A DNA stretch of 64,000 nt from Fictibacillus nanhaiensis (GTDB taxonomy: Bacteria; Bacillota; Bacilli; Bacillales; Fictibacillaceae). The notes beneath the pieces are model-generated. The model ran no database searches. It was not told where the DNA came from and saw only the letters and a program-made list of their open reading frames with translations. Positions 24,361 through 48,623 of this stretch are shown here, one piece after another. Every line of letters starts with the position of its first letter. The first letter of the stretch is position 1. The translations under genes and the position numbers were made by a program. Where the stretch lies: contig JAEACG010000007.1 of assembly GCA_016401345.1 (NCBI GenBank), positions 63,147-127,146 on the forward strand, given 5' to 3'.

Positions 24361-24375
24361 GCTAGGCACTCCTTT

Positions 24376-25887
24376 CTATTTAACTTTATCCGGGTTATAC
24401 TTATTTCTGTTTTGTGGCCTTGCTAATTGTGGCCGCCGAAAGGTAAATTTGATAGGCAAACGAACAATACTATCTAGCCAGTCAGCGAATCTTGGCGGGT
24501 AAAACGGTGCTAAGTACGGACTTTCCAATGTCGTTAGTCTTAAAAGATGTATAAGAATAATACAGAATCCAAACATAATTCCATAAAAACCCCAAAAACC
24601 AGCAAGAAATAGTAGTGGAAAACGAATAATTCGAATTAAGCTTCCCATCGTATAACTTGGTGTAGTAAAAGACGCCAAAGCACTAAGGGCAACGATAATA
24701 ATCAAAATGTTGCTCGTAAAACCAGCCTGGACTGCTGCTGTTCCAATAACAATACCTCCCACGATACCCATTGTCTGTCCAACTTTCGTGGGTAAACGGG
24801 CTCCTGCTTCACGTAATAGTTCAATGATAAATTCAAGAAGTAACGCTTCAAATAATGGAGGAAATGGTACTCGTGATCTGGATTCTCCTAATGGTACTAA
24901 AAGGGCTTGTGGAATAACTTCATAATGAAAGGAGAGAGCTGCAACGTATAGCGCTGTAAAAAATACGGATAAAAGCATTGCAATAATACGTAATAACCTA
25001 ATAAAACTAGCGATTGGCCATCTTACGTTATAGTCTTCTCTACTTTCAAAAAACTCTATAAACGATAATGGACAAAGAATTGCCATCGTACTTCCCTCTA
25101 CCAAGATAGCTAACTTCCCATTAAGTAATCCATCACATATACGATCTGGTCTCTCAGTTAATAACATTTGAGGGAAGATGGATAACGCATTATCACTAAT
25201 TAACTGGTTTAATACCGCACTGTCTAATAAACCATCCACATCAATAGATTTTATTTTTTCCTTAAACCTTGTGACCATAGCCTGTGAAGCAAGGCCATCT
25301 ATATAAAGTAACGACACTTCCGTATTCGTCCTAGAGCCTATTACAAATCGTTCATTATGAAGATCAGTTGTGGTAATATAACGTCTGATTAGAGATATAT
25401 TAGTAGCTAATGACTCGTTAAATCCAATTTGTGGTCCTACTACCTGTGACTCATTTTCAGGTTTACTTAAAGAACGATTATTATCTGTAGGAATGTTAAT
25501 TAACAATAATGTGCTTGTTTGATCAATATGTATTCCCACACTACCTTTGAGTATCGACAGCATTCCGTTTTTCATACTATAAGACTTTTGTATTTCTGAA
25601 ACTGCAATTTCCGTTATTACGTTCTTTTCTGTGTAGACCTGTACATTTTTTAAGTGTCCAATTATATTCTGATTAAGTTCTTTTATATTTACTTGAGTAT
25701 CGATATAGATAATGGTGAGGTTTGAAATTTTAATCGTTTTAAAATCTGCTGAATAATGTAATTTTTGTTGAATTATTTTTAGAAACTCTACAGAATCGAG
25801 TGGTATATCTGATGAAGTATTCGTTTCTTGTGACTCAACAAATGGTTTTTCTTGAAGTAACTTCTTGATCTCTCTTTTTCTAAACAT
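24376..25887 (-). CDS. Germinant receptor A subunit (GerAA-like)
   Basis: 503 residues. A long soluble N-terminal domain (about 1-285) is followed by several membrane helices around 290-445 and a basic C-terminal tail. Clear GerA signatures: RRYITTTDLHNERFVIGSR, LYIDGLA and FPQMLLTERPDRICDGLLNG, then LVPLGESRSRVPFPPLFEAL. This subunit forms the ion channel of the receptor. It is the first gene of the operon and its start follows GAGGTGAGGTT. The forespore promoter was not identified with confidence. Confidence 0.92.
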   Translation of the reverse strand: MFRKREIKKLLQEKPFVESQETNTSSDIPLDSVEFLKIIQQKLHYSADFKTIKISNLTIIYIDTQVNIKELNQNIIGHLKNVQVYTEKNVITEIAVSEIQKSYSMKNGMLSILKGSVGIHIDQTSTLLLINIPTDNNRSLSKPENESQVVGPQIGFNESLATNISLIRRYITTTDLHNERFVIGSRTNTEVSLLYIDGLASQAMVTRFKEKIKSIDVDGLLDSAVLNQLISDNALSIFPQMLLTERPDRICDGLLNGKLAILVEGSTMAILCPLSFIEFFESREDYNVRWPIASFIRLLRIIAMLLSVFFTALYVAALSFHYEVIPQALLVPLGESRSRVPFPPLFEALLLEFIIELLREAGARLPTKVGQTMGIVGGIVIGTAAVQAGFTSNILIIIVALSALASFTTPSYTMGSLIRIIRFPLLFLAGFWGFYGIMFGFCIILIHLLRLTTLESPYLAPFYPPRFADWLDSIVRLPIKFTFRRPQLARPQNRNKYNPDKVK

Positions 25888-28259: not shown

Positions 28260-29225
28260 TTATTTAGGATCTCTTAAAATCCATTTTGGCACTATTTTTA
28301 TGTAGATTAATTCTCCAATCAGCTCAACGATCGTTTGCGTCACGATCACTGCTGCCGCTAAGGTTCTCCAAGACTCTGGTAACGCAAGCGCTAACGGAAG
28401 AACGACAAGAGAATTTCTTGTTCCCATGCTGAAGATTAGTGCTCTTCCTGCACCTATATCTAAAGTGAATACGCGTGCGATAACGCGAGAAACCATTGGC
28501 ATGATGATTAAGAATAATAGATAAATTGGTACTACTTGAACGATACTATTAAAATCATTGTAGACTTTTCCTATTTGTGATGCGACAATGACGATCAAGA
28601 CAAGAGCCATAAACGGGACGGGTAACCATGCTGTCAGGTTTAATGCTTTATCACCAATGGTCTGTTTTCTCGCCCATAGTTGTGTAAGAACCGCTAATAA
28701 TAAAGGCACCACGATCAATAAGAAAAAGGCTTCTAAAAATGGTCCCATCTGTACGACTGACATCACCTTTTTACCGATAAATAACCATAGATAAAGAGGA
28801 AGCAGCACCATCTGGACAACAAACAAAATAGGTGTTGCCGCTAGCATTAATTTTTCGTTTCCTTTTCCGAGCTGAGTAAAGACGATGATATAATCAATAC
28901 ACGGAGTAAGAAGAACTAAGCAAATCCCCAATACGATTGGTGCAGGCTGTGGGAAAATGGAAATTAGACCCCATACTATGATAGGTACGATTACGAAATT
29001 TCCGATTAGCAAAGCTATCATAAATCTGACGTTTGAAACAGCTTCTCTTATCTTTAAAAAAGGAATTTGGGCGAACATCCCGTACATGAGGATAGCGATT
29101 AGTGGAGTGATTGTCCATTGAAGTCCAGCTCCGAAATTTTCAAAGGTAAGACCGGTAAAGCCACCTATTAGTAAAGATATACCGTAAATCCATATTTGTT
29201 GATTCTCTAGACCTTCCCTCGTCAT
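28260..29225 (-). CDS. Arsenic-resistance (ACR3/bile-acid symporter superfamily) transporter
   Basis: 321 residues with ten hydrophobic helices. The segment VLLTPCIDYIIVFTQLGKGN carries a conserved Cys near a helix break, as in ACR3 arsenite pumps, and a second signature is IFSMGTRNSLVVLPLALALP. Such proteins export arsenite; relatives may move other oxyanions or organic acids. There is no ArsR or arsenate reductase next to it, so arsenic is a family-based guess. The ATG at 29225 is preceded by AAAGGGAGATATTAC. Confidence 0.83.
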   Translation of the reverse strand: MTREGLENQQIWIYGISLLIGGFTGLTFENFGAGLQWTITPLIAILMYGMFAQIPFLKIREAVSNVRFMIALLIGNFVIVPIIVWGLISIFPQPAPIVLGICLVLLTPCIDYIIVFTQLGKGNEKLMLAATPILFVVQMVLLPLYLWLFIGKKVMSVVQMGPFLEAFFLLIVVPLLLAVLTQLWARKQTIGDKALNLTAWLPVPFMALVLIVIVASQIGKVYNDFNSIVQVVPIYLLFLIIMPMVSRVIARVFTLDIGAGRALIFSMGTRNSLVVLPLALALPESWRTLAAAVIVTQTIVELIGELIYIKIVPKWILRDPK

Positions 29226-32840: not shown

Positions 32841-32942
32841 TTTGTCGAGATTTAGCAACTCGTCGATAAACGATTGAAACTTGTGGAATTATTATTCAAA
32901 CTCGTGGAATTATTGACGAAATTTATAGATTCACGCTATAAA
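32841..32942. repeat. Degenerate 21-bp-step array
   Basis: Three units start at 32859, 32880 and 32901, each 21 bases. They read CT(C/T)GT(C/G)GA at the front and end in AAA. Copies two and three share GTGGAATTATT. An 18-base relative (TTTGTCGAGA...) precedes, and a more divergent 21-base unit follows. This occupies the gap between the Imm26-like pseudogene and the TOMM precursor. Read in one frame it gives heptads L-V-(D/E)-x3-K, but no start or ribosome site supports a gene. Confidence 0.6.
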
Positions 32943-33167: not shown

Positions 33168-33293
33168 CTGTTTCTATTTCCAGCACCCAATCCTGTAACG
33201 GTGGACAGACTGTATCCATATTTTATTATGAGGAATTTGAGCAGAGATTCTCTACTCGTTCTAGATCTGACAAAAAACAAGGAGGTGTTTGTA

Positions 33294-33596
33294 TTGGACA
33301 ATAAACACCAATGGAATTTGGATGGATTAAGTACTGGAGACTTTCAAGTTAGTGGCGGTCAGCCACATCATCCCCAAGAACAGCAAGCACAAGACCCTCG
33401 TCTTATCGTTCCAGGCTGTGTAATCGGAATCTGTTTTAACTTTTGTGGAGGTTGCGCAGGTTGCGTCGGATGCGCTGGGTGCGGCGGTTGTGCTGGTCGT
33501 TGTGGAGGCTGTGGCGGTTGCGGAGGCTGCGCAGGACGTTGTGGTGGTTGCGGTGGACGCTGTGGCGGATGCGGCGGACGTTGCGGAGGCAGATAA
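33294..33596 (+). CDS. Heterocycloanthracin-type TOMM precursor peptide
   Basis: 100 residues. The leader (about 1-40) contains LDGLSTGDFQVSGG, which matches the L-x3-DFQ-x-G block of heterocycloanthracin/sonorensin leaders. From residue 41 the peptide is a run of Cys, Gly, Ala and Arg: 17 Cys between 42 and 97, spaced by 3 or 4 residues (CGGC, CGGRC), and no Ser or Thr. The enzymes encoded 0.3 kb downstream would convert these Cys to thiazolines and thiazoles. The start is TTG at 33294 with AAGGAGGTG 6 bases before it; a longer frame upstream lacks any site. Export and cleavage genes are not seen beside it. Confidence 0.88.
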   Translation: MDNKHQWNLDGLSTGDFQVSGGQPHHPQEQQAQDPRLIVPGCVIGICFNFCGGCAGCVGCAGCGGCAGRCGGCGGCGGCAGRCGGCGGRCGGCGGRCGGR

Positions 33597-33626
33597 TCAG
33601 ATAAATGCATTGTTCGAAGAAATTTC

Positions 33627-33663
33627 AGGGGGCTTTGCTCAAGTTTTTGAGCATCAGTCCTCT
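33627..33663 (+). other. Hairpin between precursor and biosynthetic genes
   Basis: TGCTCAA and TTGAGCA pair with a GTTT loop, extended by a partly paired AGGGGG/CCTCT outer arm, followed by TATTTAATTTTT. Such a weak terminator may let some transcripts run into the enzyme genes, keeping precursor in excess. Confidence 0.5.
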
Positions 33664-33757
33664 ATTTAATTTTTCACACCCCTACAATTCCGATTTTGTC
33701 CTCCTGAAATATATAATCCCTACAAATGTATTTCTCAAAATGACACACATACATATA

Positions 33758-33862
33758 TTCACGGTAATTCAAAATAATTTCACGGTAATCCGCAATATAT
33801 TCACGGTAAATAACTATTTATTCACGGTAATTGGTTTTATATTCACGTTACTCAATTACTTA
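33758..33862. repeat. Five direct repeats with exact 21-bp step before the TOMM enzyme genes
   Basis: TTCACGGTAA begins at 33758, 33779, 33800 and 33821, and the variant TTCACGTTAC at 33842, each 21 bases after the last. The other 11 bases of each unit are AT-rich and vary. The array ends 72 bases before the ATG of the HcaF-like gene. A 9-base core CACGGTAAT with a 12-base spacer is the geometry of LytTR-type regulator sites, such as those controlling plantaricin genes, but no LytTR gene is in this window. Sites on one face of the helix, two turns apart. Confidence 0.75.
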
Positions 33863-33934
33863 TTAATCATATGACATAACGGACAAGCAGAATCCATAGG
33901 TATAGATGATGAGCATTAGGTTAGGAGGGGTATT

Positions 33935-35809
33935 ATGTCAGGTGTCACTCTCTCGATGTGTTTGAAAATCAACCGAGACACGTTCGTCTATCCACAAAAT
34001 AACGGCGGCGTTTATCTCCGTAATAACGTGACTTCTATACAAATGGACGGAAATACGATCGAGCAATGGCTGCAAAAATTAATTCCTATGTTAGATGGTA
34101 ACCGGTCCATGGAGGAAATTACGGACGGGCTGCCTGATGCATATAAAGAGCAAGTCTTTAAGATCGCTGAAGTGTTACACAAAAATGGTTTTGTTCGCGA
34201 TACAAGTCAGGACCTTCCACATCAGCTACCTCCTGCTCTTTTAGAAAAATATGCTTCACAGATTGAATTTATTGATCACCTTAGCCACTCTGGAGCGCAT
34301 CGTTTTCAAAACTATCGTGATTCGAAAGTCGCTCTAATAGGCGGTGGTCCACTTCTCACTTCTCTCACAGCTTCACTTTTACAATCAGGACTTCCTGCTT
34401 TCACAATATTTCACGATACGGTAAACCAAGCTGAAACTAAATTACTGCAAGAACAAATAAAGGCTGCAAAAAAGCATGAGCCTCAATCGGCCATTACACT
34501 CTTACCATTCAATGAAAACAACTGTAAAGAAGATCTATCAAACGTTAATTATGTTCTTTATGCAAACGAAGATGTGAACACAGACATACTCTCTATGATT
34601 CAAAATATATGCAGGGAACAATCGATATCATTTCTACCTATTACATTACAAAACAATCAAGCTTTTGTTGGTCCTTTTGTCTTATCAGATTCTGCAGCAT
34701 GCTGGAAAACAGCTTCTTTACGCTTAAACAAAAAAATCAGCGAGGGAAACAAATCCATATCATCGCGAACAGCTTCAAGCCTGCTTGCGAACGTTGCTGT
34801 TTTTATGCTGTTCAAAAAGATAACCGACGTACAGGAAAATTCCGAAAACTCCGTCTATCAACTGAACGTGGAAACCTTAGAAGGAAGCTGGCATCCGGTT
34901 TCTCCTCACCCTTTCATAAACAAAAAAATGAAGGTTGATCAGATCGATGACCCTCTCTTGTTTTTAACAGATTCACCCAACCAAGAACTTGATCTGCACT
35001 CATTGTTTTATCAAATTACATCAAAGGAAACCGGACTATTCCGCTTGTTTGAAGAAGAAGATCTATCCCAGCTTCCACTGTCACAGTGCAGAGTAAAAGT
35101 GGCAGACCCATATGGTGAAAGTGAACCAGAACTCATCACAGCCTCAGGTAGAACACACGAAGATGCCAGACTAGAAGCAGGTCTAACTGGACTTGAAACG
35201 TATGTGAAGAAGTTATTTCATCATTCTCCCCATAATATGAGTGTTGGTACCGGCCGGTCTGCAGCAGAAGGAATGTGTAGAGCACTGCAAAACAACCTGC
35301 AAGAAATCTTCATGAATTCTCAAAACAAAATGCAAGTTTCTGCAGAAATTGATCAAAGTTCTATTCAAGACTCATACTCCACTTTTCTAATTCAAGCACT
35401 ATCAACGCTTTGTAATGAGATCAAACTCTATTTAGGTAAGAAGGTTTATGGTTTTCCCGTGGTTTGCGTTCAGCATGATGGTAAATGTTTCGGCTCTATC
35501 GGTCTAGATGAGAACCGTGCATTACAAAACGCACTTCAAGGAGCTCTTATGTATCGGCAAAATAAAGAAAAAGCATCTAGCAAGAAATGCATAATGTTGT
35601 CTAACACCATTCCAACCATTCGACTTCAAACGATTACCCTTTCAGAAACAAAAGAAGTACCACTAACAGAAACATTAGCATCAGCTCTACAAACGTTAAA
35701 GAGCAACAACTGCAACGCAACGTTTTACACATTACATGCAGAACCCATTTTGAACGAAAATACTTCTGGCATGTTTGGAATCACACTCTCTTCGGAGGTT
35801 CAATCATGA
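33935..35809 (+). CDS. TOMM leader-binding maturation protein, HcaF-like (ocin-ThiF-like)
   Basis: 624 residues. Residues about 15-90 look like the small winged-helix leader-binding (RRE) module. At 130-150 a Rossmann-like SKVALIGGGPLLTSLTASLL marks the degenerate ThiF/E1 fold of the thiazole-bacteriocin maturation family. The rest is unlike other families. In heterocycloanthracin systems HcaF binds the precursor leader and is required for the cyclodehydratase to work. Here it is first of three enzyme genes and its stop overlaps the next start by 4 bases (ATGA). TAGGAGGGGTATT precedes the ATG. Confidence 0.87.
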   Translation: MSGVTLSMCLKINRDTFVYPQNNGGVYLRNNVTSIQMDGNTIEQWLQKLIPMLDGNRSMEEITDGLPDAYKEQVFKIAEVLHKNGFVRDTSQDLPHQLPPALLEKYASQIEFIDHLSHSGAHRFQNYRDSKVALIGGGPLLTSLTASLLQSGLPAFTIFHDTVNQAETKLLQEQIKAAKKHEPQSAITLLPFNENNCKEDLSNVNYVLYANEDVNTDILSMIQNICREQSISFLPITLQNNQAFVGPFVLSDSAACWKTASLRLNKKISEGNKSISSRTASSLLANVAVFMLFKKITDVQENSENSVYQLNVETLEGSWHPVSPHPFINKKMKVDQIDDPLLFLTDSPNQELDLHSLFYQITSKETGLFRLFEEEDLSQLPLSQCRVKVADPYGESEPELITASGRTHEDARLEAGLTGLETYVKKLFHHSPHNMSVGTGRSAAEGMCRALQNNLQEIFMNSQNKMQVSAEIDQSSIQDSYSTFLIQALSTLCNEIKLYLGKKVYGFPVVCVQHDGKCFGSIGLDENRALQNALQGALMYRQNKEKASSKKCIMLSNTIPTIRLQTITLSETKEVPLTETLASALQTLKSNNCNATFYTLHAEPILNENTSGMFGITLSSEVQS

Positions 35810-37746
35810 CTCAACAAATCATTTTGATTGGGAATGGTAGTCTAGCTAATGAAGTTTACCAACAATTATATGAAACCTATCACATCTCTCGTTTTAAGAC
35901 AGTGGTAGATGCTGAAATCAATAATGAAAAACTAGCATTAGTCCTTCATGATAGCTGGAATCCGGCTCAGCATGTTAAAGCAGATGAATTGTTCCGAAAC
36001 AGCAATATTCCATGGTTGAGAGGATTTGTATTCTTTGGTGAAGCACATGTTGGTCCACTCGTTCAGCCAGATCAACCAGGCTGCTCACAATGTGCGGATC
36101 TACGTTTTTTCATGACCGGTCAAGATCGTAGAGAACATTTTCACATGAAAGACTATCAATGTTCAAAAGAAGAATTACCGCGAGATGTTTGGGCTACTAA
36201 TCTCGCAATCAACCAGACAGCTGCCCTCATTTGTGATGAGGTCGAGCGTCTCATGCATGTTGGTACTCCTCTCACCCATGAACACGTATACTTGATGAAC
36301 CTACAAACGTTCAAACTTTCGAAGCATTTCTTTTTACCAGATCCGTATTGTGAAACATGTGGTGACATACTACTTGATACCGATGATCATGCTATGGTTT
36401 CTCTTCAATCTAGTCCGAAAATCTCTCGAGACGTTTATCGTTGCCGTTCGATAGATTACCTTCAAAACGTATTAAGTCGAGATTATTTAGATAATCGTAC
36501 GGGTCTTCTCAACTTTAAAAGATATGACTTGATCTCACCTTTCGCCGACACTGTTGTAAACCTGCCTTTGCTCTCTGGTAATGAACTGAATGCCGGCAGG
36601 ACACATTCGTATGTGCATAGTGAACAAGCGGGTATTTTAGAAGGACTTGAGCGGTATTGTGGTTATGCGCCACGAGGAAAACGAACAATCGTTTACGAAC
36701 CATACAACAAAGTGAAAAATGTAGCAATGAATCCCCTATCGATCGGAACTCATGCACAGAAACAATACAGTCAGCACCATTTTCCTTTTCAACCGTTTGA
36801 TCCAGACCGACCGATCCACTGGGTGTGGGGATATTCCTTGTCTGAAGATCGCCCTGCATTAGTGCCTGAAACGTTCGCCTATTACAGCATGGGTGGAGGA
36901 GAAGGCTTCGTTTATGAGACTTCAAATGGCTGTGCAGTTGGTGGTAGTTTAGAAGAAGCCATTCTTTATGGCATCTTCGAAATCGTAGAACGGGATGCAT
37001 TTCTTATGACGTGGTACGGTGAACTGCCTATTCCGCGTCTTGACATGAAATCAATTAATGACGCAGAGCTTCAGCTCATGGTTCAACGCATCCAGCATGT
37101 AACGGGGTTTGAGGTTCAATTATTTAATGCTACTACTGAAAACGGAATTCCAAGCATTTGGGCGATGGCAAAGAATACGAAGAACGATGGCTTAAATTTG
37201 CTCTGTGCAGCCGGTGCCCATCTTGATCCACTTAGAGCAGCCAAAGGTGCTGTTCAAGAGCTTTCTGGCATGCTTCTTAATATGGAAGAAAGTTTTCTGA
37301 AAGACCGTAAGAAATACGAAAAGATGTATAAAGACTCTAGTCTAGTTCGTCATATGGAAGATCACTCGATGGTGTACGGCTTAAAGGAAGCAGAGAAACG
37401 ATTATATTTTTTACTAGATAAGCGGAAGGTGCGAGACTTTGAAGAAGAGTTCAAACCGGTTCGCCAAACTGACGATCTTTTAGAGGACCTAAATAGTGTG
37501 CTGAAAATCTTTAAGAACCTAAACCTTGAAGTTATTGTGGTTGATCAAACCGGACCTGAATTACAGAGAAACGGCCTACATTGTGTAAAAGTTATCATAC
37601 CAGGCATGCTGCCGATGACGTTCGGACATCATCTCACTCGATTACAAGGGTTGGACCGAGTGCTCACGGTACCGATGAAACTCGGATATGTGAAACAACC
37701 GTTATCACCGAACGAATTGAATCCACACCCTCACCCGTTTCCTTAA
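35806..37746 (+). CDS. TOMM cyclodehydratase, fused C and YcaO (D) domains
   Basis: 646 residues. The N-terminal third is an E1-like C domain with IILIGNGSLANEV and two CxxC pairs (C93/C96 and C182/C185) for structural zinc. From about residue 260 the YcaO domain runs: HSEQAGILEGLERYCG and EAILYGIFEIVERDAFLMTW hold the ATP- and Mg-binding Glu residues. The chain ends NPHPHPFP, the PxPxP tail that TOMM YcaO enzymes need for activity. It uses ATP to phosphorylate amide oxygens and close Cys side chains into thiazolines on the precursor. HcaD is the closest described relative. Confidence 0.92.
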   Translation: MTQQIILIGNGSLANEVYQQLYETYHISRFKTVVDAEINNEKLALVLHDSWNPAQHVKADELFRNSNIPWLRGFVFFGEAHVGPLVQPDQPGCSQCADLRFFMTGQDRREHFHMKDYQCSKEELPRDVWATNLAINQTAALICDEVERLMHVGTPLTHEHVYLMNLQTFKLSKHFFLPDPYCETCGDILLDTDDHAMVSLQSSPKISRDVYRCRSIDYLQNVLSRDYLDNRTGLLNFKRYDLISPFADTVVNLPLLSGNELNAGRTHSYVHSEQAGILEGLERYCGYAPRGKRTIVYEPYNKVKNVAMNPLSIGTHAQKQYSQHHFPFQPFDPDRPIHWVWGYSLSEDRPALVPETFAYYSMGGGEGFVYETSNGCAVGGSLEEAILYGIFEIVERDAFLMTWYGELPIPRLDMKSINDAELQLMVQRIQHVTGFEVQLFNATTENGIPSIWAMAKNTKNDGLNLLCAAGAHLDPLRAAKGAVQELSGMLLNMEESFLKDRKKYEKMYKDSSLVRHMEDHSMVYGLKEAEKRLYFLLDKRKVRDFEEEFKPVRQTDDLLEDLNSVLKIFKNLNLEVIVVDQTGPELQRNGLHCVKVIIPGMLPMTFGHHLTRLQGLDRVLTVPMKLGYVKQPLSPNELNPHPHPFP

Positions 37747-37778
37747 AACTGTACGATAGAAAGAAAGGGGCATTGTAC

Positions 37779-39323
37779 ATGAACCTCGATGAGTTTTTAT
37801 ACAACCTTCATTACGAGACCGCTAAGATCACGCCTCCCGATTGGGAAGTGAACTGGGAAGATGCCCCGCTTCCCTATAAACTGTACACAACAGATCTGCC
37901 TGAAGTTGAATTAACCAGAAATTTTTCTGACACACACTCACCTAGTACTCTTCCAACGCTAGCTGATCTAAGTCAATTTCTTTGGTATTCCTATGCAATC
38001 ACACAAGTGAGCGAGTCGTTTCTTTCCATCGATTCAGTGGATACGTGGATGACTTATCGCCGCTACGTTCCTTCTGGGGGTGCACTCTATCCGAGTGAAG
38101 TTTATCTGTATCTGAAGCTCCAAGAAATACCCACTGGCATCTATCATTACGATGCTGCACATCATTCGTTAATTTGTTTGCGTGAAGGAAATTTTGATGA
38201 TTATTTGGATGGAGCTTTAGGAAATCGCTGCGATATATCGAAATGTTTTGCATCTATATTTGTATCGACTTTCTTTTGGAAAAACTTTTTTAAATATCAC
38301 AATTTCTCTTATCGTCTTCAAGGACTCGACGCAGGCTTTTTGCTCGGCCAGATGTTAGAAGTCGGGAAACGTAAGAACTTTAAGACTGGCGTTTATTATC
38401 AATTTTTAGATGGGGCTATCAATCATTTACTTGGGGTTCATGAGGATGAAGAAAGTGTGTATGCTGTTCTTCCTCTCTCAATAGACAACGCAATGAAATG
38501 GTTTGAGGATATAAAAAACGTTCAAATTACCTCAGCAAAACTATGTAAAGAGCTTGAGCCCATACACCATCAACATTATATGAAGTCAAAGGTTGTTCGC
38601 CCTTATCCAATGCTGCTTAAAATGAATCAAGCATGTATGTTGCATGCTTTAACTAATGATAAAAAGCATCCAATCAATAATGATTCTTCTCTTGTAAAAG
38701 TACCGCAAACAAACGATTTAACTAATTCGTTCTCAAAAGCATGCAAAGATCGATATTCCCCAGGACAAGATTTTGTATTAAAACCATTACAGTTCGAAAC
38801 TCTTTCAAACCTTTTAAATGACCTTACATTAATGAGTCACTATCGAAACGATATTGATCAAGATCTTTCACTTTTAACGTCCCGTGTTTCCCTTCGCTTT
38901 ACTTCATATGGTGTAGTTGGACTTTCTAATGGTATGTATGAAGTCTGTAATTTCACTCATGAGATAAAGCAGATCTCAAACGGAGATTACAGGATGACTC
39001 AACAAGATGGTCTGCTTTCCGATTTTGTTAATATGGCTCAGATTCCGCTTTCGTTTAATTTTAGCGGCAACAGAAACCACTACCAGGAACTGTACGGTTA
39101 TCGAGGTCATCGGATACTGCACATGGAAGCGGGAATTCTAGCTCATAAGTTACTCATTGCTGCCTCTGCACGAAACATGAACGGTCACCCAGTTCTAGGA
39201 TTCGATGTTCCTTGGTATGATGAGTTATTTCAACTAAGAAAAGATGAAAGAACGAGTTTACTACAGATTCCAATTGGTTATCACCGTCCACCAGCAAGGT
39301 TACAAAGTCGTGTGGATATGTAA
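37779..39323 (+). CDS. SagB-type FMN dehydrogenase
   Basis: 514 residues. Nitroreductase-fold SagB/McbC family: RRYVPSGGALYPSEVYLYL at about 90-108 (the conserved R-x2-PSGG-x2-YP block), GLDAGFLLGQMLEVGK in the middle, and a degenerate second copy in the C-terminal half. FMN-dependent oxidation turns thiazolines into aromatic thiazoles, completing the modification begun by the cyclodehydratase. The start is the ATG at 37779 after AAAGGGG; an open frame further upstream belongs to the previous gene in another frame. It is the last gene of the unit; the terminator begins in its stop codon. Confidence 0.88.
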   Translation: MNLDEFLYNLHYETAKITPPDWEVNWEDAPLPYKLYTTDLPEVELTRNFSDTHSPSTLPTLADLSQFLWYSYAITQVSESFLSIDSVDTWMTYRRYVPSGGALYPSEVYLYLKLQEIPTGIYHYDAAHHSLICLREGNFDDYLDGALGNRCDISKCFASIFVSTFFWKNFFKYHNFSYRLQGLDAGFLLGQMLEVGKRKNFKTGVYYQFLDGAINHLLGVHEDEESVYAVLPLSIDNAMKWFEDIKNVQITSAKLCKELEPIHHQHYMKSKVVRPYPMLLKMNQACMLHALTNDKKHPINNDSSLVKVPQTNDLTNSFSKACKDRYSPGQDFVLKPLQFETLSNLLNDLTLMSHYRNDIDQDLSLLTSRVSLRFTSYGVVGLSNGMYEVCNFTHEIKQISNGDYRMTQQDGLLSDFVNMAQIPLSFNFSGNRNHYQELYGYRGHRILHMEAGILAHKLLIAASARNMNGHPVLGFDVPWYDELFQLRKDERTSLLQIPIGYHRPPARLQSRVDM

Positions 39324-39368: not shown

Positions 39369-40019
39369 TTAGTTGTTATCTACATTCTTATACCGATTGA
39401 AAAAAACATAAGAAGCAATGGTTGCGATGAGAACCGTTGATAAAACCACAACGAGCATACCCGTAAATTTATAAATGCCTGGCAAGAAAGATATTGCAAC
39501 AAGCAAAATTCCTGCCATTACAAAGAGCTTCCCACTAAGTTGGTGTGTTTTTCTCCACGTCTTCTCGTTCGCAAGCGTCCACGGTGTGCGTATCCCGATA
39601 AAGTAGTTATGTTTGATTCTCGGCAAGTAGTTTCCAAGTACGATAAAAAGTAACCCGATACCTAAATTCACGACTAGTGAAATGTCTATATTAACACCTA
39701 AACCATAGCTTATGGTCATGGATTGAAGAAGTAAGAAGAACACGTTCATAATCGTAATAAAAATCGTATAACTGCTAGAAAATTTCTTGTAGTTTTCTTT
39801 CTTCGGGTCAATTCTTGGCATGAAGATAAACAACGCCATCAAAACAATCATTAAAAGTGGCGGAAAGAATGCAGCATATTGCTTATCCCAATATCCATCC
39901 ACCTCACCATGGATGTTCCAATGCATTGGCATTTGATCAGGCAGGTAAGGATATGCGAATACACCGATCAGTACACTAAGTGCAATAAGAAGATAACTCC
40001 ATCCATACTTTTTCATCAT
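39369..40019 (-). CDS. sdpI: SdpI-family immunity-type membrane protein
   Basis: 216 residues with about six membrane helices. The N-terminal block AYPYLPDQMPMHWNIHGEVD is the DUF1648 signature (P-x2-(M/I)P-x-HWN), and GNYLPRIKHNYFIGIRTPWT with ETWRKTHQLSGK is the SdpI block. In B. subtilis SdpI protects cells from the SdpC toxin and holds SdpR at the membrane. No sdpC toxin is seen, but the gene lies beside the TOMM cluster. Its start overlaps the SdpR-like stop by 4 bases. Immunity to the TOMM product is an inference. Confidence 0.87.
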   Translation of the reverse strand: MMKKYGWSYLLIALSVLIGVFAYPYLPDQMPMHWNIHGEVDGYWDKQYAAFFPPLLMIVLMALFIFMPRIDPKKENYKKFSSSYTIFITIMNVFFLLLQSMTISYGLGVNIDISLVVNLGIGLLFIVLGNYLPRIKHNYFIGIRTPWTLANEKTWRKTHQLSGKLFVMAGILLVAISFLPGIYKFTGMLVVVLSTVLIATIASYVFFNRYKNVDNN

Positions 40020-40288
40020 TTTTCCTCCTTCGTTGTAAATGTGAAATACCAGCTCATTAATTCATGAAACACCGTTGTGTTCAAAGAATAATAAATATGC
40101 TGTCCTCTTCTCTCATCATCAATTAGCGAAGCATGCTTTAAAATTTTCAAGTGATGAGACACACTCGGTTTTTGCATGTCAAAATGTGAAGCGATCTCTC
40201 CTGCTGTTAGTTCATCTTCTTTTAACAGCGTTAAGATCTGTCTTCGGGTTGGGTCGGATAATGCTTTAAATGCTTCATTAAGAGACAT
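40016..40288 (-). CDS. sdpR: SdpR-like ArsR-family autorepressor
   Basis: 90 residues. Winged helix-turn-helix of the ArsR family: FKALSDPTRRQILTLLKEDE, MQKPSVSHHLKILKHASLI as the recognition helix and ERRGQHIYYSLNTTV as the wing. No metal-binding Cys are present, which fits the SdpR branch. It shares a 4-base stop/start overlap with the SdpI-like gene and has a palindrome 28 bases upstream that is likely its own operator. GAGGTGACAAG precedes the ATG. Confidence 0.9.
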   Translation of the reverse strand: MSLNEAFKALSDPTRRQILTLLKEDELTAGEIASHFDMQKPSVSHHLKILKHASLIDDERRGQHIYYSLNTTVFHELMSWYFTFTTKEEK

Positions 40289-43419: not shown

Positions 43420-44064
43420 TTAAAGCCATTCATAGCAATCGTCAGCTAAATGCTGTAACTCTTCTATGAAAAAACTAGCGTGATATCCGTCACATACCGC
43501 ATGGTGCACTTGTAAAGATAATGGAAGCAATATTGTCGAATCCTGTTTAAAATATTTTCCACTTGTTATAATCGGTAACAAATAACTGTTCCCCTCATTT
43601 ATGTTCAAGTTGAATCCAGTAAAGCTAACCCAAGGAATCATGGATATCGGAAATGAATTTGGTGGTTCATTCTGTTTCGTGAATAACCCCTTTATGCTAG
43701 AATATCGCTCTATATCATCATTATAGTTTTTGTAAAAACGAACAAAATGATTGGAATACTCTGTCCAAATGCTCGAGAACGATTTGTTATCACTATGAAA
43801 GATTGTATAGCTCGGCAGCATCTCTTCCCAATAACCTAGTGTTCCATCCTTAAAACAGGTGCGGAATTCTTCATGAGAATTAACAACTTTACTAACCATG
43901 TGAAGGAAAGTCGGATAAAACGTAATGCCTTTTTTCCGAATCTGTTCAAGTAACCTTGTAATGTTAATATAAGCGGTCAAGCTAAAGGTGCATTTTTGAC
44001 GTAAATAATGTTCAAAATATGGAGTTCTATCCCAATTCTCTTTATTGATTGCATGAAATTTCAT
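43420..44064 (-). CDS. catA: Type A chloramphenicol acetyltransferase
   Basis: 214 residues, the usual CAT length. The catalytic block is LSLQVHHAVCDGYHASFFIE, with the general-base His in HHAVCDG near the C terminus and the conserved Asp beside it; PISMIPWVSFTGFNLN and FYPTFLHMVSKVVNSHEEFR are the other family segments. It acetylates chloramphenicol at the 3-hydroxyl. The ribosome site CAGGAGGC is held in the hairpin at 44072-44105 and freed when a ribosome stalls on the MVKADK leader. The two Cys in LGYWEEM-like regions are not conserved, so normal activity is plausible. Confidence 0.92.
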   Translation of the reverse strand: MKFHAINKENWDRTPYFEHYLRQKCTFSLTAYINITRLLEQIRKKGITFYPTFLHMVSKVVNSHEEFRTCFKDGTLGYWEEMLPSYTIFHSDNKSFSSIWTEYSNHFVRFYKNYNDDIERYSSIKGLFTKQNEPPNSFPISMIPWVSFTGFNLNINEGNSYLLPIITSGKYFKQDSTILLPLSLQVHHAVCDGYHASFFIEELQHLADDCYEWL

Positions 44065-44071
44065 GTATTTC

Positions 44072-44105
44072 GCCTCCTGAACTATTTTTTTAAGTTTCAG
44101 GAGGC
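44072..44105 (-). promoter_or_regulatory. Translational attenuator hairpin of cat
   Basis: On the minus strand GCCTCCTGAAACT pairs with AGTTCAGGAGGC (one bulge) around an A-rich loop. The right arm contains the cat ribosome site, so translation is blocked unless the hairpin is opened by a drug-stalled ribosome on the leader just upstream. Confidence 0.88.
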
Positions 44106-44126
44106 TTACTTATCTGCTTTCACCAT
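44106..44126 (-). CDS. Cat leader peptide MVKADK
   Basis: Seven codons, MVKADK then TAA, directly before the attenuator hairpin, with its own site GAGGTGAG 4-5 bases upstream. The classic cat-86 leader begins MVKTDK and a ribosome holding chloramphenicol stalls with codon 6 in its active region; here residue 4 is Ala instead of Thr and the stop follows codon 6. The leader stop is immediately next to the base of the hairpin. Confidence 0.85.
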   Translation of the reverse strand: MVKADK

Positions 44127-44161
44127 TTTTCTCACCTCTTAAATTTCACTGAGTTCACTAG

Positions 44162-44632
44162 TTATTCTACTTTAATATTAGCAACGAATTCCGTATCTCC
44201 TTGATCAGAATCAAAGTCTATTTCTAGCACATAATTACCCTTTTCTTTAGGAAAATAGAAAGTCTTGTCAGCTTCACTTAACATGTCAAGATCTTCACCT
44301 TTTCGAGCTACTACCCCAATTCTCACTCCCGAATATGGATTCATTCCTTCGATCTCATTTTGTTCAATGATTAAAAACCCGCTACTCCCAGGATTAACGG
44401 AAATTTGCTTTTCTTTTGCAGCAAGTTCTTTTAAATTTATGTATTCTTTATCATATTCACCTTCCGTAAAGTTCCACTTTCGATTTCCTTCTTTAAGTTT
44501 ATATAGCTCATCCCCCACCTGAAGAAATGCTTCTGGAGGACTTTCATAGTACTCTTCACCAATACAGCCTGTTAACAAAAAAGGACCAAGAAGCAGTGTT
44601 GCTAGAAAGGATACGCTTTTGGATTTATTCAT
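44162..44632 (-). CDS. Lipoprotein of unknown function
   Basis: 156 residues. A lipoprotein signal peptide ends FLLTGC, Cys at about 23. The mature part is beta-rich and acidic, with KGNYVLEIDFDSDQGDTEFV near the C terminus; no named domain. The stop is only 36 bases upstream of the cat leader start, with no terminator between, so the two may be co-transcribed. The site GGAAAGGAAATATTAAAT precedes the ATG. Confidence 0.8.
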   Translation of the reverse strand: MNKSKSVSFLATLLLGPFLLTGCIGEEYYESPPEAFLQVGDELYKLKEGNRKWNFTEGEYDKEYINLKELAAKEKQISVNPGSSGFLIIEQNEIEGMNPYSGVRIGVVARKGEDLDMLSEADKTFYFPKEKGNYVLEIDFDSDQGDTEFVANIKVE

Positions 44633-44791
44633 ATTTAATATTTCCTTTCCTTACTAACCTTGAACAGTAATGAATTATTAGAAAGAATTTTTCTTTTCCT
44701 AAACCGTTTAAAACGATTTAAAAGTTTTTAACTACGAAGTCAAGTTCCTTTAATGATTCTGTACATATGTTTAACAACATTCAATAAAAAA

Positions 44792-44818
44792 TGCACTTCT
44801 CCTTCTTGAAGAAATGCA
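44792..44818 (-). terminator. Terminator of the NUDIX gene
   Basis: Minus strand: TGCATTTCTTC pairs loosely with GGAGAAGTGCA, followed by TTTTTTATTG. Confidence 0.65.
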
Positions 44819-44840
44819 CCTTATTTTGTAATGCAATACC

Positions 44841-45254
44841 TTAACAATTCCCTTGGAAAATATATGGTGTTGAGGATTTTAATAAGCTTTTCACACCACC
44901 TGGATGGTAGGGCATTAAATTATCTGCAGTTTCTATGTCCATCCATTTTGTTTCAACAATCTCATTCTTATCTTTTATTGTTACTTCTCCACTAATGATT
45001 TTTGTGGAAAAGGTAATCATTACTCCATGATGTTCATGTTTAGTAAAAAAAGCTTCGTTAACCGCAATAACCTTATCCACTTCGATAATTAAACCTGTTT
45101 CTTCTTTTGTTTCACGGATAACTGCTTGTTCTAAAGTCTCTCCTTTTTCCACCGCCCCACCTGGTAGTGACCAACTTGAGCGACGATTATTAACCATTAA
45201 TACTTTCTCTGTTTTCTCGTCATAAATAAAAGCATATACTACATCTACTCTCTT
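44841..45254 (-). CDS. NUDIX hydrolase
   Basis: About 137 residues. The Nudix box runs from [18 protein letters not shown] to EETGL (G-x5-E-x7-RE-x2-EE-x-G), all metal-binding Glu present. It hydrolyses a nucleoside-diphosphate derivative; which cannot be read. The start is GTG at 45254 after GAGGTG; an ATG at 45275 is possible but lies before that site. Confidence 0.87.
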
Positions 45255-45374
45255 CACTAACTTACACCTCATCATTTATTTAAAATATTTAAGACACATA
45301 ATAACATCTTATAAGTTGTAAATTTTTTAATAAAATGCTACTACTATTTAAAAAGTACCGATTCTTGAATAATA

Positions 45375-45767
45375 TCATTCTTCTAATAGGTCGTTAATAT
45401 AGTCTGTTAATTCTTCTTTAACATCCTCCAGCGTTTCATCAAGAAATTCCCCAATAATTTTATTGCCTGGAACATTTTTTGAAGTAGGCATTCCTAAAAT
45501 ATATCGATTGCATTCCCATATTTTAATTGTATGTAAATTAATAAGAGATTCATTTTCATCAATTCCAATTGAAGTTGTTGAAATATAACCAGGCGTAAAA
45601 GGATCATTACACTCTTTGAAAAACCGTGCCTCAAACCCTAATTTCTTCTGAGCAAAAACAGGTTTATATTTTATTGACAAGCAATTCATATAGTCTTTTA
45701 AAGCTGCTTCAGTATTTTTAATTCTTTCTAATAAATCACTTGAAAACTCTTTTTGTTGATATTTCAT
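45375..45767 (-). CDS. Hypothetical 130-residue protein
   Basis: Mixed alpha/beta, no signal peptide. An N-terminal helix (SSDLLERIKNTEAALKDYMN) is followed by beta strands including PGYISTTSIGIDENES and LINLHTIKIWECNRY, and an acidic C-terminal helix. The strand pattern could be a small immunity-like or ligand-binding fold, but I recognise no family. AAGAAAAGAAGTGA precedes the ATG; a good gene by composition only. Confidence 0.55.
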   Translation of the reverse strand: MKYQQKEFSSDLLERIKNTEAALKDYMNCLSIKYKPVFAQKKLGFEARFFKECNDPFTPGYISTTSIGIDENESLINLHTIKIWECNRYILGMPTSKNVPGNKIIGEFLDETLEDVKEELTDYINDLLEE

Positions 45768-46022
45768 AATAAATAAATCACTTCTTTTCTTGAAAATAGA
45801 AATTATCTTTAGATTAAGTAATCCTTTTTGTTACTTATTAAAATTCCATAATAAGAGCATTAATCCTTGTTGGATAGATGCTAGCGTATGTCGAAAAAAC
45901 TTTTCATAAATAAATTCCATTACACTTTGAAAAAGCTTCTAAGTACTCCCCAGATAAAAACCTGCACACTCTTATTGTTCTAGTTTTCAATACTTAAGTT
46001 TGATTACAATTTATGTTCATTG

Positions 46023-46052
46023 TTGATATATTAGTTATCATAGATTTATTAT
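46023..46052 (+). promoter_or_regulatory. Likely promoter of the beta-lactamase gene
   Basis: In the gene-free stretch 45768-46090, TTGATA and TATTAT lie 18 bases apart, a fair sigma-A promoter. The start would lie about 30 bases before the ATG. No BlaI/MecI-type operator (TACA-N-TGTA repeats) is seen, so expression may be constitutive. Confidence 0.5.
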
Positions 46053-46090
46053 TTGAAAGAAAATACCTAATAGAAAGAGGTTGAATTTTT

Positions 46091-47020
46091 ATGAAATCGT
46101 TGAGCAACATATTTCGTTCATCTACTTTTAGAAAAATTGTCCCTGTTCTATTTCTTTCTAGTGCAACTCTTGTAGGTTCAATCAGTCATGTTGATGCCAA
46201 AGCAACAAGACCCTATGAACAAGGAATTGCAAATCATCATGTTTTTTCCAAGCTTGAGAAAAAATTTGATGCGAAACTTGGAATCTATGCATTGGATACT
46301 GGTACCAACCAAACCGTAAACTATCATCCAGATGAACGTTTTGCTTATACATCTACTCATAAGGCTCTAGCTGTAGGAGCACTATTACAACAGAAATCAA
46401 TAGAAGACCTTAATCATACAATTACCTATACACGTGAAGATCTCGTTACTTATAGTCCGATTACAGAAAAGCATGTTGATACCGGGATGACTCTTAAAGA
46501 GCTTTCGGATGCTTCTCTTCGATACAGTGACAATACTGCTGGAAACCTTATACTTAAACAACTGGGGGGACCGACTGGATTTAAAAAATCACTGGAGGAA
46601 ATTGGTGATTATGTTACCTACCCTAAACGCTATGAACCTGATTTAAATGAAGTTAATCCAGGTGAGATTCACGATACAAGTACACCAAGAGCTCTTGCTA
46701 CTAGTCTTCAAGCCTATGCACTGGGAGATATACTCCCAACAGAAAAACGCGAACTATTAATAGATTGGATGAAGAGAAATACTACTGGAGATGCCTTAAT
46801 TCGAGCAGGAGTGCCAAAAAGGTGGGAAGTAGCTGATAAGACTGGGGCAGGATCATATGGTACGCGAAATGACATTGCGATCATTTGGCCGCCAAAAAGA
46901 GACCCTATTGTTCTTGCTGTACTTTCCAGTCGTGATCAAAAAGATGCTGATTATAACGACAAGCTTATTGCTGAAGCAACTAAAGAAGTAATAAAGATTC
47001 TTAAAGTCAAAAACAAATAG
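46091..47020 (+). CDS. bla: Secreted class A beta-lactamase
   Basis: 309 residues. Signal peptide about 1-36 (KIVPVLFLSSATLVGS core), ending near VDAKA; no lipobox Cys. All active-site elements are present: Ser88-T-H-Lys91 (S-x2-K), Ser146-D-N148, Glu182-x3-Asn186 in EPDLNE on the omega loop, and Lys250-T-G. This is a typical Bacillus penicillinase. No blaR1/blaI sensor pair lies nearby. AGAAAGAGGTTG precedes the ATG. The terminator downstream is shared with a dead gene on the other strand. Confidence 0.93.
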   Translation: MKSLSNIFRSSTFRKIVPVLFLSSATLVGSISHVDAKATRPYEQGIANHHVFSKLEKKFDAKLGIYALDTGTNQTVNYHPDERFAYTSTHKALAVGALLQQKSIEDLNHTITYTREDLVTYSPITEKHVDTGMTLKELSDASLRYSDNTAGNLILKQLGGPTGFKKSLEEIGDYVTYPKRYEPDLNEVNPGEIHDTSTPRALATSLQAYALGDILPTEKRELLIDWMKRNTTGDALIRAGVPKRWEVADKTGAGSYGTRNDIAIIWPPKRDPIVLAVLSSRDQKDADYNDKLIAEATKEVIKILKVKNK

Positions 47021-47121
47021 AAAATTATAAGGTTTGTTTTTATACTTTAATTGCTGTCAAGATATAAAGGACCTTCTTTATTTACATTTGCACCCTATTG
47101 CAGCATATATCGAAAATAAGA

Positions 47122-47157
47122 AAAACCATAGGGAGAACTTAATCTTCCTATGGTTTT
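47122..47157. terminator. Bidirectional terminator
   Basis: AAAACCATAGGGAGA and TCTTCCTATGGTTTT pair with one wobble. It serves the beta-lactamase on one side and the pseudogene on the other and resembles the terminator at 52853. Confidence 0.8.
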
Positions 47158-47164
47158 ATTCTAA

Positions 47165-47298
47165 TTATTTTTCTGTTTGATTTTGCTTATTTCAAATACT
47201 CCGCACATATTTTCAAGATGATTCTTTTTAACAAAGTTAACAAGTGTCTGTTTGTTCATTGAAACTTTGACACAGCTACTTGACCTTTATTTCCCCAT
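47165..47298 (-). pseudogene. Decayed paralogue of the 49-residue protein at 52895
   Basis: Aligned with the intact gene: the start ATGGGGAAA matches TTGGGAAGA, a stop appears at codon 4, then GQVAVSKFQ (matching AQVAVTKFH) runs into a shift, and NKQT and KKNHLEN follow in another frame (matching EKQT and KKKHLEK). About 16 bases are lost in total. It even keeps the following terminator. So a small gene was duplicated and one copy has died. Confidence 0.7.
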
Positions 47299-47432
47299 TT
47301 TGTTTACCTATTTTTATTTTCAAACTTGTTTCACTAAGTAAACCTGATAAATCTTTTAAAAGCAAAAGCAAGGTGATAACTATAGAAAAAAATGAAATTG
47401 TCTTATACTAAAATACTTCTATACGTAAACGT

Positions 47433-47618
47433 CTATCCACTAGACTTTTTTAGTCTCTCAATAATATTGCTTCCAATTACACCAATCCATAAAAATATGA
47501 AAATCCATATTAAATACTCTTTAATAGTTTCTTTACCTATACCTATTAAATAAAAAGTAATCATTAAAACTGCCATTCCACGAAACAAATTAAAAAGTCC
47601 ACTAAACATATTAACCAT
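47433..47618 (-). CDS. Small membrane protein
   Basis: 61 residues, two hydrophobic stretches (about 12-25 and 35-52) and a basic end ERLKKSSG. GAGGATGAAGA precedes the ATG, a reasonable site. No family recognised and no homologue known to me. Confidence 0.5.
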   Translation of the reverse strand: MVNMFSGLFNLFRGMAVLMITFYLIGIGKETIKEYLIWIFIFLWIGVIGSNIIERLKKSSG

Positions 47619-47764
47619 TCTTCATCCTCAATTACCATTTTTATTTCTGTATTACGTTAAATAATGCATTCATTATATCTTTTGTATAGATGTCATGTCC
47701 TAACACTTTTAGTACAGAGGAAGTTGGCAGCAACAACGTATATTTTTCATTATGCTACCGTATC

Positions 47765-48623
47765 TTAGAGATATTCTTTTATTCCGTTTTCAAAGGCACG
47801 TTTATCGTTATTTATCAAACCATGCAACGCTTCTTGTAAAGCAAACGTGCTCTTATAAAATGTAACACGCTGAGCTATTTCTGAACCATTTGGGTAAAGG
47901 TCTATACACATGTTAAAGAAATCTTCGCCGTAACTTGATAGTATTCCTGCAAAATCAAAGGCAGGATCACCAATACGGGTACCACCAAAGTCTATAATCC
48001 CTGAAATTTCACAATTTTGGGAGTTCCATAAGATATTCGAAGCTCCAAAATCTCCATGTATAAGAGTTGTTTTTAAATGTTCTTCATTATTAAGGAAACT
48101 CTCAAATGAATAAATGATATCCTTTTGAGCTTTTTCATTGATAAATGGAAAGAGCTTGTTCTGTATATTGTAAAATAGTTCTTTCATTTCTTCATAAGGG
48201 TTATGATCTATTAATTCTAGATCGCTATGCAACTTCTCTTTTGTTATGGAATGCATTTCAATTAGAAATGTTACGAGTTGTTTTGCAAGTTTTATTGAAT
48301 CCACTTTATCAACTTTAACTAAATGTTCATTCCAAAAAGGATCACCTTCAATACGTTCATAACCAGTAAATACCAGGTTCTAATAGTTCAAATGACTGAT
48401 ATTTTGGACATGGAATTGGGATTGATGTAGTGCCACTAATATGTTCCAAGATTTTCGTTTCTTCTTTTAAATTTACAATTCCTTTATTGTACTTGGGAAA
48501 TCTGAATACAAGAGAATTGTTTATTATGAACACATCGTTATTTTGACCAATATCATTGAGATAAACATCCTCAATTAAAAGTTCAGGATAGACTGCTTGA
48601 ATACGTTCAATATAATCATTCAT
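47765..48623 (-). pseudogene. Frameshifted aminoglycoside-phosphotransferase-family gene
   Basis: Two pieces of one protein in different frames. The first (48623 to 48357) starts MNDYIERIQAVYPELLIEDV and reads through GQNNDVFIINN and FRFPKYNKGIVNLKEE (ATP site), ending LLEPGIYWL at a stop. The second, from about 48375 down to 47765, resumes TGYERIEGDPFWNEH and carries HGDFGASNIL (catalytic Asp) and DFGGTRIGDPAFDF (Mg site). One base was lost or two gained near 48375. Total about 286 residues, full length for the family. Loss of activity is likely unless the shift is suppressed or a sequencing error. Confidence 0.82.

Follow-up and report, generated by a model that had tools for sequence, protein, structure and literature searches.

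A heterocycloanthracin-type gene cluster of Fictibacillus nanhaiensis with promoter patterns that point to the sporulation mother cell

Two mother-cell-type promoters ahead of a peptide-modifying gene cluster

We analysed a 64,000-nucleotide stretch of the Fictibacillus nanhaiensis genome (GenBank assembly GCA_016401345.1, contig JAEACG010000007.1, positions 63,147 to 127,146 of the forward strand; hereafter the window), which carries a cluster of the heterocycloanthracin (HCA)/sonorensin type, by its sequence a known kind of thiazole/oxazole-modified microcin (TOMM) system. This system is probably run by the mother-cell programme of sporulation. It consists of a precursor gene and three enzyme genes encoding an F protein, a fused cyclodehydratase (CD) and a dehydrogenase (B), all four in the same direction (Table 1). 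They are accompanied by a conserved Arg ahead of the core and by two conserved promoter patterns, which are distinct at the base that separates sigma-E from sigma-K promoters; other conserved neighbours are lacking. The gene set is an ordinary member of its kind. The two-stage developmental wiring is the new part, in that we did not find it described in the literature searched (titles and abstract starts).

A conserved block in the upstream alignments, GTAAC-N17-CATATTTTA, forms the precursor's predicted promoter; in the window it reads GTAACGGTGGACAGACTGTATCCATATTTTA, and its CATA lies 77 bases ahead of the start codon. The published Bacillus sigma-K consensus is MWCM-16-CATANNNTD, with A, G or T at the last position (PMC9562818, in part; citations so marked draw on a portion of the source text). 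Written in that form the window site is AACG-16-CATATTTTA, whose spacing and -10 equal the published ones. Ahead of the F gene, the sequence CATAACGGACAAGCAGAATCCATAGGTATA begins at 33875 and contains CAT-N17-CATA. Sigma-E and sigma-K promoters share the same -10 and differ at a single -35 base, T versus C (PMC517825, in part); at both window sites this base stands 17 before CATA, and it is C ahead of the precursor and T ahead of the enzymes. These features suggest a sigma-K-type promoter for the precursor and a sigma-E-type promoter for the F-CD-B operon.

Proven sigma-K and sigma-E promoters served for comparison (PMC4750369 and PMC11736430, both in part). The exosporium gene bclA and similar sigma-K exosporium or coat genes have CAC-N16-CATATGTTA, against AAC-N17-CATATTTTA here, and they encode envelope proteins, whereas here a peptide is encoded together with enzymes for a ribosomally synthesized and post-translationally modified peptide (RiPP); late mother-cell timing, demonstrated for bclA with lacZ and a sigK deletion, is predicted here (PMC4750369, in part).

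In the mechanism that we propose, sigma-E, probably with SpoIIID, would activate the F, CD and B genes at an early mother-cell stage, and sigma-K would later turn on the precursor, so that the enzymes come first and the substrate after. The F protein would bind the leader, CD would convert the core cysteines to thiazolines, and B would oxidise the thiazolines to thiazoles. The leader would then be cleaved off at the conserved Arg36 by a mother-cell protease with Arg specificity, such as YabG, and when the mother cell lyses the product would be left on the spore or in its surroundings. A cell that ends in lysis would need neither exporter nor immunity genes; mother-cell synthesis would therefore explain why no exporter stands beside the cluster. 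We infer the use of the promoters, the ring chemistry in this species, the role of YabG and the fate of the product. A preliminary description of this DNA had recognised the TOMM type and the lack of a linked exporter or protease, both of which hold. What it overlooked is the promoter pair, whose form favours the mother cell over an ordinary secreted bacteriocin with an exporter elsewhere.

Table 1. Genes and putative regulatory sites of the cluster
Feature	Position	Strand	Details
Precursor peptide	33294..33596	+	100 aa; 17 Cys in the core; leader through Arg36 (codon 33399-33401)
F protein (ocin-ThiF-like, leader-binding partner)	33935..35809	+	624 aa
Fused C/YcaO cyclodehydratase (CD)	35806..37746	+	646 aa; C-terminus NPHPHPFP
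SagB-type flavin mononucleotide (FMN) dehydrogenase (B)	37779..39323	+	514 aa
Sigma-K-type promoter of precursor	33195..33225	+	AAC 33197-33199, N17, CATATTTTA 33217-33225
Sigma-E-type promoter of F-CD-B operon	33875..33904	+	CAT 33875-33877, N17, CATAGGTATA 33895-33904
SpoIIID-like word GGACAG	33203-33208	+	upstream of precursor; box as assumed by us
SpoIIID-like word GGACAA	33881-33886	+	upstream of F; box as assumed by us

Promoter patterns across related loci

We counted both patterns at the loci of the cluster's own family together with four loci from other genera, and separately at 30 loci from the family to which the Paenibacillus locus L039 belongs. The sigma-K pattern was sought up to 300 bp upstream of precursors and the sigma-E pattern up to 120 bp upstream of F genes, each against 200 dinucleotide shuffles. 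A first leader pattern gave only four loci, and a wider one was then used. One locus (L041), in which no family precursor was seen, was left out of all promoter counts; another (L061), missed by the leader pattern and running into a sequence gap, was left out of the precursor counts.

In the first set, which comprises the very loci on which the patterns were discovered, the strict sigma-K pattern AAC-N17-CATANNNTD stands ahead of 31 of 33 precursors (shuffle mean 0.18, maximum 2), and a loose [AT]C-N16-18 form ahead of 32 of 33 (3.33, maximum 8). The sigma-E pattern CAT-N17/18-CATA precedes 31 of 34 F genes (0.80, maximum 4). When exchanged, the patterns fall to chance: the sigma-E pattern occurs at 1/33 precursors (shuffles 1.54) and the strict sigma-K pattern at 0/34 F genes. 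In real DNA, 864 kb in all for both strands of 24 neighbourhoods, there are 38 strict sigma-K matches, 22 at precursors and 16 elsewhere, the latter about 0.006 per 300 bp. A search with CATANNNTA by itself fails in the other genera, where G is the last base of the -10.

In the second family 57/104 genomes are positive, with 30 loci among the matches listed. Here the strict sigma-K pattern precedes 21/30 precursors (shuffles 0.11, maximum 1) and the loose one 27/30 (1.86, maximum 6), while CAT-N17/18-CATA, mostly with the spacing of 18, precedes 25 of the 29 F genes whose start lies inside the locus (0.45, maximum 3); the strict sigma-K pattern is found at none of the 29. Two Paenibacillus loci (L039, L040) had been viewed beforehand, and several of the 30 are mutually close.

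For SpoIIID we sought GGACAR-like words, taking its box to be WWRRACARNY. They occur ahead of 28/34 F genes (shuffles 6.3, maximum 14) and 24/33 precursors (8.7, maximum 15) in the first set, and ahead of 25/29 F genes (8.6, maximum 16) in the second family.

The genes dpaA and gerPA belong to the sigma-K regulon and served as controls in the same genomes (30 loci each for dpaA and yabG from 34 genomes; for gerPA the best place in each of 18 genomes, from 38 places). The loose sigma-K pattern stands before dpaA at 30/30 and before gerPA at 18/18. The box CATANNNT[AT] is absent from 24/30 dpaA loci, which are positive with the sigma-K pattern and its wider -10 end. CotZ (PF10612), sought as a further sigma-K control, gave no match in any of 18 genomes.

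Link to sporulation and the leader junction

Among 398 Bacilli genomes sampled, F occurs in 80, which makes HCA-type clusters common (254 are listed in Cox 2015; PMC4603692, in part), and spoIVA occurs in 267. All 80 genomes with F have spoIVA (hypergeometric 1.2e-16 by genome; 2.6e-4 by genus, 42/145 versus 123/145); for 4 of these genomes the F match is weak, with E above 1e-55.

Of 62 precursors, 61 have an Arg no more than 14 residues ahead of the first Cys of the core, the miss being L038; one second-family locus (L207) was left out of this count. The junction is often D-P/S-(A)-R followed by L, Q or I. Cleavage after Arg is reported for YabG, a protease of the spore (PMC10681294, in part), which makes this enzyme a candidate leader protease and no more than that.

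Points that weigh against mother-cell control

Several observations count against the proposed control. The precursor's -35 in the window, AACG, agrees with MWCM at three letters out of four. Among the controls, the strict sigma-K pattern precedes only 19/30 dpaA and 4/18 gerPA loci. The gene yabG carries the sigma-E pattern at 29/30 loci and the loose sigma-K pattern at 1/30, although it is reported to be under sigma-K in Bacillus subtilis (PMC10681294; its abstract start names sigma-E as well for Clostridioides difficile, in part). The C/T rule is therefore an imperfect guide; either factor would still mean the mother cell. In the first set, the precursors of L038 (Brevibacillus) and L045 (strict form only) and the F genes of L038, L058 and L061 lack the respective pattern, and no sigma-K pattern lies upstream of the L061 precursor. 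In the second family L194, L207 and L214 are misses. Two of these, L194 and L214, have AAC-N17-CATA with a different -10 end, and L207 is mis-set by its match; all three were kept as misses. Because the loci are related, the shuffle numbers overstate their independence, and the spoIVA link is confounded by kinship, which inflates both the genome and the genus statistics.

The upstream motif could instead belong to another regulator, for example an extracytoplasmic function (ECF) sigma factor with a GTAAC-like -35. GTAAC is indeed conserved beyond what the published sigma-K -35 demands, and within clades the conservation extends to the bases that separate the boxes. However, GTAAC-N17-CATANNNTA is found at only 4 places in the cluster's own genome, the precursor's included, and so there is no wider regulon of that exact form; the -10 and its spacing are those of sigma-K (PMC9562818, in part), and the F promoter has the sigma-E form. 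We regard another regulator as quite improbable.

Assignment to the heterocycloanthracin family

The preliminary description had named a heterocycloanthracin-type cluster with thiazole-forming machinery, composed of HcaF-like, fused C/YcaO (with a PHPHP tail) and SagB-like genes, and profile matches of the enzymes (TIGR03693, TIGR03604, TIGR03882 and TIGR03605) bear this out. The profile search that it had proposed places CD and B above the TIGR cut-offs, F along its full length at a score below the curated one, and the precursor as a weak match. The F protein matches TIGR03693 over residues 1-621 (E 8.8e-148, 493.4 bits; curated cut-off 561.9), and its stretch 15-88 corresponds to the PbtF domain solved as 8t19 (E 1.6e-9). 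In CD a single chain matches both TIGR03604 (409.9 bits, cut-off 219.25) and TIGR03882 (137.3 bits, cut-off 36.9), as well as PF02624 and the proteins MusD, LynD and TruD. Its YcaO part begins at residue 264, whereas that of MusD begins at 418 and that of LynD at 407. Such a shift would be expected if the C domain lacked about 100 N-terminal residues, although these two proteins are not ideal comparators. The tail is a mark of the family, since PHPFP closes every one of the 34 CD sequences compared; the closest named CD relatives are from F. norfolkensis (93% identity), F. nanhaiensis (90%) and F. phosphorivorans (87%). The B protein matches TIGR03605 (173.4 bits, cut-off 78.4), with McbC and CyaGox among its matches, and its coding part most likely starts at the ATG at 37779 and does not extend to the far end of the open frame.

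The precursor starts at a TTG preceded by AAGGAGGTG. The coordinates given earlier for the cluster hold to the base, and the precursor's previously described length, its 17 Cys and the lack of Ser and Thr in its last 60 residues proved exact on recheck; every Cys lies in the core, at distances of 3 residues (ten times), 4 residues (five times) and 5 residues (once). A Ser/Thr-free core is nothing unusual, as 27 of 62 precursors compared are alike. The match to TIGR03601 is weak (E 5.6e-4, 20.5 bits, under the cut-off of 35), while relatives in two genomes (G019, G024) exceed the cut-off with 40.9 and 39.9 bits. The precursor and these relatives (L053, L056) have in common the leader W-N-L-x-G-L-x-T-x-D. 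Using leader-only profiles, trained in three sets on other genera with the Cys cores removed, the precursor ranks first of the 937 frames of the window (E 0.0038 with 11 leaders, 0.005 with 40 and 0.13 with 29). The precursor's end lies 144-414 bp before F in 21/21 Fictibacillus-type loci; it is more distant in some loci outside this set (about 4 kb in L059). Because the leader-only profiles rank it first and a precursor sits before F in all 21 loci, the precursor is not a chance frame.

A candidate second precursor in the same genome (G000:C20:184413-184583, L079) was rejected, as its weak TIGR03601 match is atpA read out of frame; an Rfam scan of this place gave no match. Such a match is a trap for genome mining with TIGR03601.

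The gene set is of a known kind because both the F/CD/B set and the CXX core have been published (PMC4603692, PMC2674419): Haft 2009 describes the core (PMC2674419), and Cox 2015 gives the fused cyclodehydratase, F and B as the only genes common to all HCA clusters, with no final structure named (PMC4603692, in part). The cluster shares with the HCA group of Bacillus the enzymes F, fused CD and B, the leader family, and a Cys-rich core of C-X-X units with tripeptide-like indels, Gly-rich and near the published CGG type (PMC2674419; PMC4603692, in part). In most B. cereus clusters the precursor is far off (PMC4603692, in part), whereas here it stands directly before F. The B. licheniformis member likewise has its precursor adjoining the maturation genes, but its core is built of Cys-Trp-Ser units, in contrast to the Gly, Ala and Arg found here (PMC2674419). 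Sonorensin of Bacillus sonorensis has a precursor of the same named family, TIGR03601.

In streptolysin-S-type (Sag) clusters, C and D are separate proteins and an ABC exporter is linked. The window differs on both counts, as C and D are fused and no exporter is found among 25 scanned neighbours.

A Cys-rich peptide with 17 Cys in CXX-like spacing might instead be left unmodified and bind metal, like a metallothionein. The modifying genes F, CD and B adjoin the precursor in 21 Fictibacillus-type loci, and the relatives L052 and L057 mix Cys with Ser; a metal-binding role is very improbable. The core of L052, from the same genus, is a long Cys-Ser run of 25 Cys and 18 Ser, and a sigma-K-type promoter lies ahead of it too.

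Neighbourhoods, the missing exporter and the fate of the product

We compared 34 neighbourhoods, mostly of 18 kb: the window, 24 further stretches and L032-L036, which together make 30 own-family places, and L037-L040 from other genera. Within the own family, F occurs in 28/34 genomes, at those 30 places. Frames of at least 80 aa were joined into families (blastp 1e-8, single linkage) and tabulated if present in at least 9/34 neighbourhoods. CD and F recur in 34 and the precursor and B in 33, together with antisense or overlapping frames of these genes; the other separate recurring genes are DinB-like (12/34), ArsR-like (12/34) and an aminotransferase (9/34). Exporter, protease and immunity genes are absent from the families that reach 9/34. 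In the window itself, the earlier statement that no exporter or protease lies beside the cluster agrees with a Pfam scan of 25 neighbouring proteins at 21.1-49.7 kb, in which no peptide exporter or protease appears (4/25 without any match; smaller frames lie outside the scan). One of the 25 is a transporter of the bile-acid-symporter family (28260-29225).

Directly behind B, on the minus strand at 39369-40288, lie an SdpI-family protein and an ArsR-type regulator. As an immunity function for the cluster this SdpI/SdpR-like pair was rejected, SdpI being present in only 6/33 other neighbourhoods, all close syntenic relatives.

The product could also be a bacteriocin of the ordinary secreted kind, made by cells in growth or stationary phase, with its exporter, protease and immunity functions encoded elsewhere. 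The TIGR03601 family is annotated as bacteriocin, and the reported antibacterial activity of sonorensin (PMC4544038, in part) fits a secreted bacteriocin equally well and so weighs against mother-cell control. Expression of a putative HCA-family gene is raised in B. cereus biofilm, but sporulation genes are up in the same study (PMC6962202, in part). The mother-cell-type promoters ahead of both precursor and enzymes, and the lack of any exporter, protease or immunity gene recurring in at least 9/34 neighbourhoods, make this explanation unlikely.

A closer alternative is that the mother-cell product is a component of the spore envelope, coat or exosporium, and no antibiotic. The sigma-K-type promoter resembles those of exosporium genes such as bclA (PMC4750369, in part), the Arg junction suits YabG, a processor of coat proteins (PMC10681294, in part), and no immunity gene recurs in at least 9/34 neighbourhoods. 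Core length and composition, however, vary widely across species, as is usual for bacteriocins (PMC2674419). We hold a structural role to be possible, if only tentatively. Given synthesis in the mother cell, release at lysis has about an even chance, and incorporation in the spore envelope a somewhat smaller one.

We also lean, less firmly than for the window's own cluster, towards reading the whole heterocycloanthracin/sonorensin family as a developmental RiPP of spore-formers. Its enzymes would be under sigma-E and its substrate under sigma-K, with trimming by YabG; the resulting polythiazole peptide would come to rest in the spore or close to it, either as material of the envelope or as a chemical guard freed when the mother cell bursts. 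The certain death of the producing cell would account for the lack of export and immunity genes. In the literature search (titles and abstract starts among the matches listed, with most subscription papers outside it) no paper linked sigma-E or sigma-K to HCA or to any other TOMM. Neither Haft 2009 (PMC2674419) nor the portion of Cox 2015 drawn on here (PMC4603692) speaks of the promoter pair, and the words 'TOMM' and 'YcaO' are absent from PMC5686519 (in part). If mother-cell control is true, an azole RiPP is tied to spore biology, and the missing exporter, protease and immunity genes are explained. Should the peptide be made solely in the sporulating mother cell, cultures in growth would be the wrong sample, and washed spores and sporulation lysates would be the ones to test.

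Other features of the window and its relatives

Between the precursor and F, at 33753-33857, a 21-base unit (ATTCACGGTAA...) is repeated four to five times with an exact period. Three exact copies of the repeat TTCACGGTAA occur in each of L036, L046 and L033 and three near copies in L047; no exact copy is found in the remaining 17 of the 21 Fictibacillus-type loci. Upstream of the cluster, at 32873-32914, ATTCAAACTCGTGGAATTATT stands twice in tandem.

Two of the loci set apart in the counts are unusual in content. The L061 stretch shows no B gene, its precursor, His/Cys-rich, runs into the sequence gap, and a further cluster (L062) is found in that genome. In L041, from Ktedonospora formicarum, distant F-, CD- and B-like genes stand in another order, with 31% identity in CD, on a stretch without a family precursor.

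Further from the cluster, a GerA-type germinant receptor operon (GerAC, spore permease, GerA) lies on the minus strand at 22145-25887, 8-11 kb upstream. On the other side, the 5 kb at 43420-48304 encode proteins of the chloramphenicol-acetyltransferase, beta-lactamase and APH families.

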